A stretch of DNA of 32,125 bases from Beijerinckiaceae bacterium. Its GTDB lineage: Bacteria > Pseudomonadota > Alphaproteobacteria > Rhizobiales > Beijerinckiaceae. Below the pieces are notes generated by a model. It was not told the DNA's origin and searched no databases. It saw nothing but the letters and a program-made list of their open reading frames with translations. The number at the start of each line of letters is the position of its first letter. The stretch's first letter is position 1. The DNA is taken from contig CANMLK010000015.1 of NCBI GenBank assembly GCA_947498445.1, positions 1-32,125 on the forward strand. The letters are read 5' to 3'. The position numbers were made by a program, and so were the translations under genes. Below are positions 6,048 to 23,110 of the stretch, piece after piece.

Positions 6048-6162
6048 GGTTTGCTTGTCTCTGGACTTGAATTACTGATCACTAATACAACTTTCGTAGC
6101 GTTTCACTCGACGCATTGCAGAGGTGGTGCGAATTTCCCCTCAGAATTATTTCGAGGCACTG

Positions 6163-6453
6163 ATGATTCGTCCGAAACGCCAAAAGGCAAAACGCGGTTT
6201 TGCAGCCATGTCGCTGGAAAAGCGCCGGGAAATTGCTCGCAAGGGCGGGCAGGCCGTGAAGCCTGAAAACCGCGCCTTTGCAAAAGACAAGGAACTGGCG
6301 GCGGAAGCCGGCCGAAAGGGTGGCGCGCAATCGCCGGGAAAGCGTCGCGGCCGCAATTCTGCGGGCCGCGCCTTGGCCTCTGCGAAACTTGAGACGGTGG
6401 CGGCGATCGACGCTCACCAGTCAGCGTCTGTGCTTGCGCCGGTGCGCGAATAG
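6163..6453 (+). CDS. KGG-repeat stress-induced protein (con-10 / YciG-like)
   Basis: A small basic protein of 96 residues with two copies of the KGG motif: GFAAMSLEKRREIARKGGQA (about 12-31) and ELAAEAGRKGGAQ. This pattern defines the short hydrophilic general-stress proteins related to Neurospora con-10 and E. coli YciG. Their molecular function is not well established. The ATG at 6163 was preferred over the upstream GTG (6124) because GAGG lies 5 nt before it and the family homology begins there. The Ala/Val-rich tail after about residue 70 is not conserved in the family as I know it. Confidence 0.8.
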   Translation: MIRPKRQKAKRGFAAMSLEKRREIARKGGQAVKPENRAFAKDKELAAEAGRKGGAQSPGKRRGRNSAGRALASAKLETVAAIDAHQSASVLAPVRE

Positions 6454-6609: not shown

Positions 6610-7125
6610 ATGCGCACCAGCGAAGCTGAAATCCTGTTCGTCCCGGGCGCCAGCCCCGATGATCCCGAACACTGGATGACCCGCTGGCAAAGCCGGCTTA
6701 CGACTGCCCGGCGCGTCACGGCGGAGAGCGACAATATCGCGAGCCTCACCGCCGCGCTTTCGCAGGCGTTGGCGGTGGAGGGGACGCGCCCGATCGTGCT
6801 GATCGGCCATGGCGCGGGCGTCTTCGCCATTGCGCAGGTTGCGCGCACCAGCGACGTGTCGCGTGTGCGCGGGGCCTTTCTCGTCAATCCCTCGTCCGCG
6901 TGGAATGTACCGGCGCCCTCGCGCGAGCCGCTGCCGTTTCCCTCGCTCGTCGTCCTCAGCCGCGATGACCCGTACGCAAGCTATGAGGAGATGCAGGACG
7001 TCGGCCTGGACTGGGGCGGGCATATTGTAGACGCGGGCGCCATAGGTCGCCTCGACAGCACATCCGGGCATGGCCCGTGGCCAGAGGGCCTGATGCGCTT
7101 CGGCGCATTCATGGCGCGCCTTTAG
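6610..7125 (+). CDS. RBBP9/YdeN-like alpha/beta hydrolase fold protein, catalytic residues apparently lost
   Basis: The 171-residue product matches the short RBBP9/YdeN serine-hydrolase family: ILFVPGASPDDPEHWMTRWQ at the N-terminus, a nucleophile-elbow region LIGHGAG (about 65-70), SRDDPYASYE (about 117-126) and a C-terminal SGHGPWPEG. The family elbow is normally GHSLG and the late histidine sits in GHIN. Here the nucleophile position is Gly68 and the aligned GH is GR (Arg147), while the Asp in DDPY remains. It therefore looks like a pseudoenzyme. The ATG at 6610 was chosen because it sits directly before the conserved domain; the tracked start is a TTG further up. Confidence 0.75.
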   Translation: MRTSEAEILFVPGASPDDPEHWMTRWQSRLTTARRVTAESDNIASLTAALSQALAVEGTRPIVLIGHGAGVFAIAQVARTSDVSRVRGAFLVNPSSAWNVPAPSREPLPFPSLVVLSRDDPYASYEEMQDVGLDWGGHIVDAGAIGRLDSTSGHGPWPEGLMRFGAFMARL

Positions 7126-7202
7126 GACGGTTCACAGCGCAGCAATTTTTGGTAAGCTCCGCTCAGACGCAAAAAACCGCGCATTCTTGGAAGGGAACAC
7201 CG

Positions 7203-8219
7203 ATGATCAAACGCACATGGCTTGCCGCTGGTTTGGCGCTTACTGCACTTGGCGCCGCCGCGCCAGCGAAGGCGCAGAGCGTCGCAGAATTTTACAAAGG
7301 CAACACGATCCGCATCGTGATCTGGGCGGCTGCCGGCGGAGAATACGACATCCACGCAAAGCTCGTCAGCCGGCATCTGGGCAAGCAACTGCCTGGCAAC
7401 CCCGCTGTCATCGCCACGCAAATGACGGGTGGCGGTGGTCTGGTCGCGGCCAATCATCTCTACAACGTGGCGCCCAAGGACGGCACCGCCATGGGCATGA
7501 TGGTGTCGAGCCTGCCGTTCCTGCAGGCTATTGGACTTGAAGGCGTGAGGTTCGACGCCGCGCGCTTCAATTGGGTCGGCACGATTGCGCCCACGCAGGA
7601 AGGACTCGTGGCCTGGCACACGGCGCCAGTGAAGACGTTTGAAGATCTGCGCAAAGTGGAATTCGTGCTTGGCGCTTCTGGCGCAGGCTCAACCAGCGTT
7701 CTCACGCCCACGATGATCAACGCGCTGCTTGGCGCAAAGATCAAGATCGTGCCCGGCTATCCCGGCGGCAGCCAGATTAATCTGGCGATGGAGCGCGGCG
7801 AATCCATGGGGCGCTGGAACACATGGTCTTCGTGGAAGACTACCCACCCGGACTGGATTTCAGAAAAGAAGATCAACTTCCTGCTGACGTCTGCGTTGCG
7901 CAAGCCGAAAGATCTTCAAGGGCCGCCCTTGCTGACAGAGCTTGCCACAACAGACGATGACAAGCGCATCTTCGAATTGCTCGCCACCAATGCTGAAATG
8001 GGCCGGCCGATTGTTGCGACGCCGGATGTTCCGGCTGACCGCATGAAGGCCATTCTGGCCGCTTATCGCGCGATGATCGTCGATCCCGAGTTTGTCACCG
8101 AGGCGAACAAGTTGAAGATCGAGATTGATCCGATCATCGGCGACGATCTCAAAGCCATGGCGGTTAAGGCGCTGTCGACGCCTAAGCATCTTACTGAGCG
8201 GGTGAAGAAGCTGATGTGA
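7203..8219 (+). CDS. TctC/Bug-type periplasmic substrate-binding protein (orphan)
   Basis: 338 residues with a signal peptide (cleavage near AKA-Q, residue 24), then SVAEFYKGNTIRIVIWAAAG, SRHLGKQLPGNPAV, and the family core AANHLYNVAPKDGTAMGMM. It belongs to the Bug/TctC family, binding proteins that capture carboxylic acids or related small anions in the periplasm. The expected membrane partners TctA and TctB are not encoded in the window, a common situation for this expanded family. AAGGGAA precedes the ATG. The ligand cannot be inferred. Confidence 0.9.
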   Translation: MIKRTWLAAGLALTALGAAAPAKAQSVAEFYKGNTIRIVIWAAAGGEYDIHAKLVSRHLGKQLPGNPAVIATQMTGGGGLVAANHLYNVAPKDGTAMGMMVSSLPFLQAIGLEGVRFDAARFNWVGTIAPTQEGLVAWHTAPVKTFEDLRKVEFVLGASGAGSTSVLTPTMINALLGAKIKIVPGYPGGSQINLAMERGESMGRWNTWSSWKTTHPDWISEKKINFLLTSALRKPKDLQGPPLLTELATTDDDKRIFELLATNAEMGRPIVATPDVPADRMKAILAAYRAMIVDPEFVTEANKLKIEIDPIIGDDLKAMAVKALSTPKHLTERVKKLM

Positions 8220-8267
8220 GGGGGCGTCTTTAAGCGTCGTTTTTTGCACCTGGCAATTGCGTGATGT

Positions 8268-8344
8268 GCGGACTTGATCCGCGCATCCAGACGCGATGCA
8301 AGTCATTGAGCCGCACTGCTTGATGGCCGGATCAAGTCCGGCCA
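8268..8344. repeat. Paired REP-like hairpins between convergent genes ('VMAGLDPAI' repeat)
   Basis: Two hairpins lie 41 bases apart: GCGGA-CTTGA-TCCGC (8268-8282) and TGGCCGGA-TCAAG-TCCGGCCA (8324-8344, perfect 8-bp stem). Their loops are reverse complements, so the unit is an inverted pair. On the minus strand it reads AVMAGLDPAIK, a peptide seen in spurious ORFs over dispersed repeats in Hyphomicrobiales. It sits between the ends of the TctC gene and purB and could also help terminate transcription. Confidence 0.7.
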
Positions 8345-8368
8345 TGACGGCGCGGTGAGGTTGCCGCC

Positions 8369-9676
8369 TTAAGCCTGCCCAAACACGCGGTTGAAAATCG
8401 CATCGACGTGCTTGAGGTGATAGCCTAGGTCGAACAAATCTTCGAGTTCGGCGTGAGACAGTTTCGCCGTTACATCCTTGTCGGCTTTCAGCAGTGCGAG
8501 GAAGTCGCCTTCGTCGCGCCATACGGGCATGGCGTTGCGCTGCACGTATGAATAGGAATCCTCGCGCGACACGCCCTTCTGCGTCAGCGCAAGAAGCACG
8601 CGCTGGGAATGAATGAGGCCGCCCAGACGGTCGAGATTTTTCTGCATGTTGCCGGGATAGACGATCAGCTTTTCGATGACGCCGGTCATACGCGCCAGTG
8701 CGAAGTCGAGCGTCACGGTCGCATCGGGTCCGATCATGCGTTCGACCGATGAATGCGAAATGTCGCGTTCGTGCCAAAGCGCGACATTCTCCATCGCGGG
8801 CATCGCCATGCCGCGCACGAGGCGCGCCAGACCTGTCAGATTCTCCGTGAGCACAGGATTGCGCTTGTGCGGCATGGCCGACGAGCCCTTCTGGCCTTCG
8901 GAGAAAAACTCCTCGGCCTCAAGAACTTCCGTGCGCTGCAGATGACGAATTTCGGTTGCCAGTCGCTCGATGGACGAGGCGACGACGCCGAGCGTCGCAA
9001 AGAACATGGCGTGACGATCACGCGGAATGACCTGAGTCGAGACGGGCTCAGGCTTGAGGCCCATCTTCTGCGCGACATGCTCTTCCACGCGCGGATCGAT
9101 GTTGGCGAACGTGCCGACGGCGCCGGAAATTGCGCAGGTGGCTATTTCCTCGCGCGCATTCACAAGCCGCGTGCGGCAGCGGGCAAACTCGGCATAGGCC
9201 TGCGCCATCTTGAGGCCGAAGGTGACGGGCTCGGCGTGGATGCCATGGGAGCGGCCAATGCACGGCGTCATCTTGTGCTCGAACGCGCGCTTCTTGAGCG
9301 CGGCGAGCAGGGCGTCGACATCTGCAATGAGAATGTCGGAGGCGCGCATCAATTGCACGGCAAGGCATGTGTCGAGAACGTCAGACGACGTCATGCCCTG
9401 ATGGACGAAGCGCGAATCTTCGCCGATGAATTCGGCAAGGTGCGTGAGGAAGGCGATGACGTCATGTTTGGTGACGCGCTCGATTTCGTCGATGCGATCG
9501 ACGTTGAAGACGGCGCTTCCCGCGCGGTCCCAGATCGTCTTGGCGCTCTCCTTGGGGATGACGCCGATCTCGGCCAGCGCGTCGCAGGCGTGCGCCTCGA
9601 TTTCGAACCAGATGCGGAACCGCGTCTGCGGATCCCAGATCTTCACCATTTCGGGGCGGGAATAGCGCGGGATCAT
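8369..9676 (-). CDS. purB: Adenylosuccinate lyase
   Basis: 435 residues, the usual length for the shorter PurB form. It contains TSSDVLDTC (about 96-104), the histidine region IGRSHGIHAEP (about 140-150) and the fumarase/aspartase superfamily signature GSSAMPHKRNP (about 264-274), whose serine lies on the flexible catalytic loop. The enzyme removes fumarate from SAICAR and from adenylosuccinate, in purine synthesis and AMP formation. It lies 18 nt downstream of rpe on the same strand, so the two are probably co-transcribed. Confidence 0.97.
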   Translation of the reverse strand: MIPRYSRPEMVKIWDPQTRFRIWFEIEAHACDALAEIGVIPKESAKTIWDRAGSAVFNVDRIDEIERVTKHDVIAFLTHLAEFIGEDSRFVHQGMTSSDVLDTCLAVQLMRASDILIADVDALLAALKKRAFEHKMTPCIGRSHGIHAEPVTFGLKMAQAYAEFARCRTRLVNAREEIATCAISGAVGTFANIDPRVEEHVAQKMGLKPEPVSTQVIPRDRHAMFFATLGVVASSIERLATEIRHLQRTEVLEAEEFFSEGQKGSSAMPHKRNPVLTENLTGLARLVRGMAMPAMENVALWHERDISHSSVERMIGPDATVTLDFALARMTGVIEKLIVYPGNMQKNLDRLGGLIHSQRVLLALTQKGVSREDSYSYVQRNAMPVWRDEGDFLALLKADKDVTAKLSHAELEDLFDLGYHLKHVDAIFNRVFGQA

Positions 9677-21863: not shown

Positions 21864-23110
21864 CAGCGCCGACCTCTGGCGTTTTTGCGCGCGGCCTTCT
21901 TTGACGCCGTCTTTGATGCTTTTTTGGCGGGCTTCTTCGCTGCCGTTCTTGTGGGCTTTTTGACCGCCTTTTTGGCGACCTTCCTGGCCGTTTTCTTTAC
22001 GATGGCCTTCGTGGATTTTTTGGCTGCTTTCTTTGTGGCCTTTTTGGCGACCTTCTTGGCGACCTTCTTTGAAGCCTGCTTGGCAGTCTTCTTGGCTGCT
22101 TTCTTCGCCACTTGTTTTAAAGCCTTGGGAGCAGCTTTCTTAGAGGCCTTCTTGGTAGCGGCCTTTACGCTCTTCTTCGCAGCTTTTTTGGCTCCCTTGG
22201 TCGCCGCTTTTGCAGCGGGGGCTTTGCTCGCTTTCTTGGTCGCTTTCTTCGCAGCTTTCCTGGTCGCCTTTTCGGGGGGCGTCTTGGCTGGCTTCTCTAC
22301 CATTGCCGCCTTGGCTGGCTGTGTGGCGGCGGGAGCCGTCAGGAAGGAGACAATCGTGCGCGTAAATTCGTTGGCTGCTTCGATGTTGGACAGATGCGCG
22401 GCTTCCAGCGCCACCAGCCGGGCGCCGGGGATGTGGTCTGCGATCAGCCCGCCAGCGGTGGGCGGCGTCGCTGCGTCCTGGGTGCCGACAATCACCAGCA
22501 CGCGGTTTTTAACGCCGCGGATCGCCTCACGCTGGTCCGCGTCGCGCAGCGCGGCGGCGGTGGCGGCGTAGGCCTCCGCCGATGTGGAGCGGAAACGCGC
22601 CGCCATGGCGTCCACCTCCGCAGGCGCGCGCTCCTGAAAATCGCGGGTGAACCAGCGGTCCATCGTGCCCGGCGCCATGGCGTCCAGCCCCTCCGCCAGC
22701 GCCTGTTTGATGCGGGCGTTCCACACGTCGGGGTGGCCAAAGCAGGCGTTTGTGTTGGAGAGAATCGCACGATCAATGCGCTCTGGCGCGTTGATCATCA
22801 GCCACATGCCCACCGCTCCGCCCAGCGACAGGCCCATGAAATGGGCTTTCTTGACCTTGAGCGCGTCGAGGATGGCCAGCGCGTCGCGTCCCAGTTGCTC
22901 GACGGAATAGGGCCCCGGCGTTGGTTCACTCAGGCCATGGCCGCGCGAATCGTAGCGGATGACCCGGAAGCGCCGCGTCAGGGAGGGCATTTGCGGCTCC
23001 CACTGGCTGAGATCCGAGCCCAGTGAGTGCGCGATGAGGAGCGCGGGCGCTCTGTCGTCGCCCTCAACCGAGACGTTGAAGGAAACGTCGCCGAGCTTGA
23101 TTTCCGCCAT
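21863..23110 (-). CDS. pcaD: 3-oxoadipate enol-lactonase with a C-terminal histone-H1-like Lys/Ala tail
   Basis: The 415-residue product has a complete PcaD alpha/beta hydrolase domain (about 1-258). The nucleophile elbow is FMGLSLGGAV with Ser95, the acid is Asp212 in VIVGTQDAATPP, and the histidine is His239 in LEAAHLSNIE. It hydrolyses beta-ketoadipate enol-lactone to beta-ketoadipate. PcaD is normally about 260 residues. Here about 155 more follow, made almost only of Lys, Ala, Thr, Ser, Val and Arg in AAKKA/ATKKAS-like repeats, ending KKAARKNARGRR. Such tails occur in bacterial H1-like proteins and AlgP and are expected to be disordered and to bind DNA, RNA or other polyanions. Stop and pcaC start overlap, so the tail is in the natural reading frame. 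Confidence 0.92.
   Translation of the reverse strand: MAEIKLGDVSFNVSVEGDDRAPALLIAHSLGSDLSQWEPQMPSLTRRFRVIRYDSRGHGLSEPTPGPYSVEQLGRDALAILDALKVKKAHFMGLSLGGAVGMWLMINAPERIDRAILSNTNACFGHPDVWNARIKQALAEGLDAMAPGTMDRWFTRDFQERAPAEVDAMAARFRSTSAEAYAATAAALRDADQREAIRGVKNRVLVIVGTQDAATPPTAGGLIADHIPGARLVALEAAHLSNIEAANEFTRTIVSFLTAPAATQPAKAAMVEKPAKTPPEKATRKAAKKATKKASKAPAAKAATKGAKKAAKKSVKAATKKASKKAAPKALKQVAKKAAKKTAKQASKKVAKKVAKKATKKAAKKSTKAIVKKTARKVAKKAVKKPTRTAAKKPAKKASKTASKKAARKNARGRR
21866..22330 (-). repeat. Degenerate Lys/Ala codon repeat encoding the H1-like tail of PcaD
   Basis: This stretch codes residues 261-415 of the PcaD fusion. The DNA is a diverged array of GCC/GCG/GCT and AAG/AAA codons with repeated units such as AAGAAGGTCGCCAAAAAGG. 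It gives long open frames on the opposite strand that are artefacts of the repeat. Codon variation between units argues that the amino acid pattern, not the DNA, is being kept. Confidence 0.85.

Follow-up and report, generated by a model that had tools for sequence, protein, structure and literature searches.

Proteins of the Pfam family PF06821 (Ser_hydrolase) are annotated by default as serine hydrolases, and annotation by family misses losses of the Ser-His-Asp triad. The human member RBBP9 is an aromatic aminopeptidase, and its S75A mutant is inactive (PMC8866121). In the literature searched, neither triad-less PF06821 proteins nor a link between these proteins and purB was found. Here, a PF06821 protein in which both the nucleophile and the base of the triad are replaced was analyzed in a 32,125-nucleotide stretch of the genome of a Beijerinckiaceae bacterium (GCA_947498445.1, contig CANMLK010000015.1), hereafter termed the window.

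The open reading frame at 6610-7125 on the forward strand starts with ATG and runs for 171 codons without an internal stop (Table 1). Its product matches positions 1-170 of the 172 in the PF06821 profile at 3.4e-29 (102.4 bits; cut-off 22), which places it in the family. An alignment of 70 relatives includes 64 triad-intact rows, and in all 64 of these column 68 is Ser and column 147 is His; the window protein carries Gly68 in place of the Ser of the GHSxG motif and Arg147, in the context IGRLD, in place of the catalytic His, and the catalytic Asp is present as Asp120. The initial annotation had described the nucleophile elbow as GHGAG, the C-terminal GH as GR, and the Asp and the reading frame as intact, and each of these descriptions is borne out by the aligned family; it missed the absence of approximately 10 lid residues and the occurrence of the Gly/Arg pair in two further species.

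Table 1. Features of the PF06821 locus in the window
Feature	Coordinates	Strand	Remarks
KGG (PF10685) protein, upstream neighbor	6124..6453	+	occurs near intact orthologues too
PF06821 (RBBP9/YdeN-like) alpha/beta-hydrolase-fold protein, Gly68-Asp120-Arg147	6610..7125	+	171 aa
Nucleophile elbow GHGAG, residues 66-70	6805..6819	+	Gly68 codon GGC at 6811-6813
Shortened lid segment, residues 93-107, NPSSAWNVPAPSREP	6886..6930	+	alignment with intact relatives
Retained acid Asp120, SRDDP motif	6967..6969	+	sequence and alignment
GRLD, residues 146-149	7045..7056	+	Arg147 codon CGC at 7048-7050, replaces His
Putative tripartite-tricarboxylate-type solute-binding protein	7203..8219	+	identified by eye
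purB, adenylosuccinate lyase, conserved neighbor	8369..9676	-	several families of the order

Orthologues sharing the Gly/Arg pair, for which the initial annotation had proposed a search, occur in two other species of the genus, each represented by a separate MAG: one from Beijerinckiaceae (G007, JAUXWZ010000157.1; 92% identity) and one from Hyphomicrobiales (G001, JAIXSM010000009.1; 59% identity), both with Gly and Arg at the equivalent positions. A contig scan yielded only seven loci, two of which were these known relatives. The three proteins form a clade (support 100/99) nested among intact sequences (L008, L005-L007 and L009), and the identical clade appears (support 100/97) when the triad columns are omitted from the tree. 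The codon for Ser68 is TCN in the intact sisters and that for Gly68 is GGC in the Gly/Arg clade, a replacement that takes a minimum of two base changes, and the exchange of His (CAC/CAT) for Arg (CGC/CGT) is a single base step. Measured from the common node, the protein branches of the clade reach approximately 0.9-1.1 changes per site versus 0.4-0.6 for the sisters, which would fit a changed function or a degree of relaxation and is incompatible with free decay; partial relaxation after the triad loss is possible. A PF06821 gene is found at E 1e-10 or better in 47 of the 51 genomes of the genus, and the genome of the window (G000) contains one. Because the clade lies among intact orthologues at a shared locus and the gene is single-copy, it represents a replaced orthologue rather than a spare paralogue; a degenerate paralogue beside an intact copy is ruled out by the lone PF06821 match in G000 and by the conserved synteny. 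The genomes of both pair-sharing relatives are MAGs, and the assembly from which the window comes is itself fragmented into 332 contigs, but a sequencing error or chimeric assembly is very unlikely, since the pair is present in three separately assembled species.

Between G000 and G007, the PF06821 genes differ at 15 non-synonymous and 37 synonymous positions (dN/dS 0.112, dS 0.36); unconstrained change would yield far more than 15 non-synonymous differences. Intact pairs at similar dS give dN/dS values of 0.079 and 0.083, and most neighboring genes give 0.03-0.11; a value near those of intact pairs and neighbors indicates that the gene is not decaying. Against G001, dN/dS is 0.28, close to the 0.30-0.37 obtained in comparisons with intact orthologues at similar dS, a range in which dS is near saturation. 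Such an active-site loss, conserved in three species under purifying selection, is expected of a pseudoenzyme. The view that the gene is retained rather than decaying, already put forward from the sequence, is thus strengthened by its persistence in three species down to 59% identity, its position at the orthologues' locus, its single copy, the dN/dS of 0.11 and a confident fold.

The explanation that we favor, with a probability of about 0.68, is that this protein is the positional orthologue of a triad-intact PF06821 hydrolase that turned into a pseudo-hydrolase in one clade within a Beijerinckiaceae genus and has been kept by purifying selection. As the Ser-to-Ala mutant of RBBP9 is inactive and the window protein lacks both the Ser and the His, canonical hydrolysis by it appears very unlikely, and its job is probably something other than ordinary hydrolysis. 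The protein retains its fold, Asp120 and the C-terminal stretch surrounding GHGPWPEG. With Ser-His-Asp catalysis presumably lost, it would act by binding: Arg147 would pair with Asp120 in the place of His147 and would supply a fixed positive group in the former active site, which might accommodate an anionic ligand, such as one with a carboxylate, or else a protein surface, and the presence of what is bound would be reported to a putative partner. Binding of such a predicted ligand or partner is the most likely role.

The triad is complete in most members of the order, and losses occur in several places. Ser is replaced by Gly and His is kept in three genomes of one genus (G072, G118 and G150). 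The triad positions hold Ala, Asp and Gly in G051 and G194 (one genus); Gly, His and Thr in G017, elsewhere within the genus of the window; Gln, Asn and Thr in G103; Gly, Asp and Gly in a more distant copy in G144; and Gly, Asp and Arg in G408, identical to the window pair. His alone is replaced by Arg (GRIN), with Ser and Asp kept, in L142/L141 (G266/G283) and in L139 (G114), and in the tree without triad columns each of these two cases groups with intact sequences, the two groups being distinct and well supported. Two patterns with a residue other than His at the His position matched 9 of 398 genomes, that of the window included; the survey sample was partly picked for low scores, and no rate can be derived from it. 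Joining the G072 genus with the window clade gave an AU p of 0.012, and this Ser-to-Gly genus is demonstrably independent of that clade. G408, G051/G194 and G103 belong to different genera or families from the window clade; the AU test did not reject joining that clade with all of G408, G017, G051/G194 and G103 (eight sequences, p 0.135) or with G017 alone (p 0.127). Forcing G408 and the window clade together was likewise not rejected (p 0.43), and an independent origin of the Gly/Arg pair in G408 is therefore not shown. Judged from these sequences, triad losses happened more than once in PF06821, with independence proven for the G072 genus and not for most of the others. Asp120 is kept in every Arg147 protein found, and both Thr147 proteins have lost it (one has His, the other Asn), a distribution, over few lineages, that points to a possible pairing of Arg with Asp in the former active site. 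As separate observations, the sequences of the Gly-nucleophile genus (L119 in G118, L120 in G150 and L124 in G072) include one pair with a dN/dS of 0.31, and in G277 a PF06821 gene (L132/L133, C132:7448-7977) is apparently split over two frames, possibly by a frameshift.

The gene order rpsD, fbpABC, KGG, PF06821 gene, purB is common to the intact relatives G021 and G044 and partly to G047; in G001, the locus contains a local inversion. In several families of the order, purB adjoins a PF06821 gene or lies close to one (window 6610-9676, L028, L113, L119, L124, L136, L139 and L141). This adjacency, together with the members of the order without Ser, His or both, one of them independent by the AU test, leaves room for the tentative reading that the intact orthologues at this locus already had a non-catalytic role, for example as partners of a neighbor's product, so that catalysis was dispensable and the clade merely dropped it. 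Put more broadly, and just as tentatively, the purB-linked PF06821 protein of the order might be an old non-catalytic binder of a small molecule or protein that dropped catalysis several times through Ser, His or both. Against this stand the full triad kept by most members of the order and the fact that gene adjacency does not show interaction; we know of no interaction between a PF06821 protein and a neighboring gene product. Dispensable catalysis is a narrower form of the pseudo-hydrolase explanation and is not exclusive of it. The putative solute-binding protein downstream, which had no match in a Pfam search at 1e-5, occurs also in G001 and in triad-intact G047; its presence in the latter rules out a tie between it and the triad loss. 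Two further observations concern the window: the C-terminal part of the KGG-motif protein matches G007 in a different frame, and one open reading frame at 21866-23110 on the reverse strand encodes an Abhydrolase_1 domain (residues 22-245) with a Lys/Ala-rich, histone-H1-like C-terminal tail of approximately 150 residues, matched nearly full length in G007 (84%) and G047 (64%).

The predicted model of the window protein is confident (pLDDT 94.6, pTM 0.91), the lid being its least certain part, and its best PDB match, 3bdv (TM 0.89, 28% identity), places it in the alpha/beta-hydrolase fold; YdeN and RBBP9 rank after 3bdv, among many other hydrolases. Ten lid columns that hold a residue in 80% or more of the intact relatives are missing in all three Gly/Arg proteins, and the clade differs at 20 further sites whose conservation in intact relatives is 70% or higher. 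Asp149 stands in place of the usual Asn, a change often seen beside triad losses; the intact sister orthologues have it too, and it is therefore by itself no mark of loss. That the protein has kept enzymatic activity through a different mechanism is unlikely. Such a mechanism could use a new nucleophile, for example Ser95 or Ser96 where the lid segment begins, paired with His154 or His138, or could be a non-covalent reaction without a nucleophile. Ser95 is found in each of the three Gly/Arg proteins, at a position occupied by Pro in 86% of intact relatives, and His138 and His154 are conserved within the clade, but the lid, which would have to hold the substrate, is shortened, the window protein contains no Cys, and His154 and Ser117 are common in intact relatives and hence not relocated residues. 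A relocated triad using His154 or Ser117, general residues of the family, is unlikely. The initial annotation had suggested modeling the structure to see whether another Ser or His could substitute; the fold came out confidently, but the proposed residue, numbered His153 and in fact His154, is an ordinary residue of intact relatives and an improbable substitute. Less probable still is early decay, in which function was lost recently and the gene is not yet broken or deleted: the long branches and the 20 altered sites would fit it, but two species that both carry the triad loss show the low dN/dS given above, the frame is unbroken across 59% identity, and the C-terminal GRLDSxSGHGPWPEGLMRFGAF is almost unchanged within the clade.

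A conserved triad-less member that occupies the locus where relatives have a triad-intact orthologue, together with an intact sister clade, provides a clean pair for studying what this family may do besides catalysis. The described PF06821 members (RBBP9, B. subtilis YdeN 1uxo and Pectobacterium 3bdv) resemble the pseudo-hydrolase proposed here in fold, length and most motifs, whereas in the window protein the Ser nucleophile and the base His are replaced and the lid is shortened. Human RBBP9 shares its Pfam family and fold with the window protein but requires Ser75, and its amine-holding Glu108, Ser76 and Tyr99 have no evident counterparts there, so that the substrate of RBBP9 cannot be transferred to the window protein. 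The NDRG proteins and neuroligins are non-catalytic alpha/beta-hydrolase-fold proteins and, like the window protein, have a hydrolase fold without a working triad that is kept for other roles; they belong to other families, mostly eukaryotic, and are likened to it by description only.
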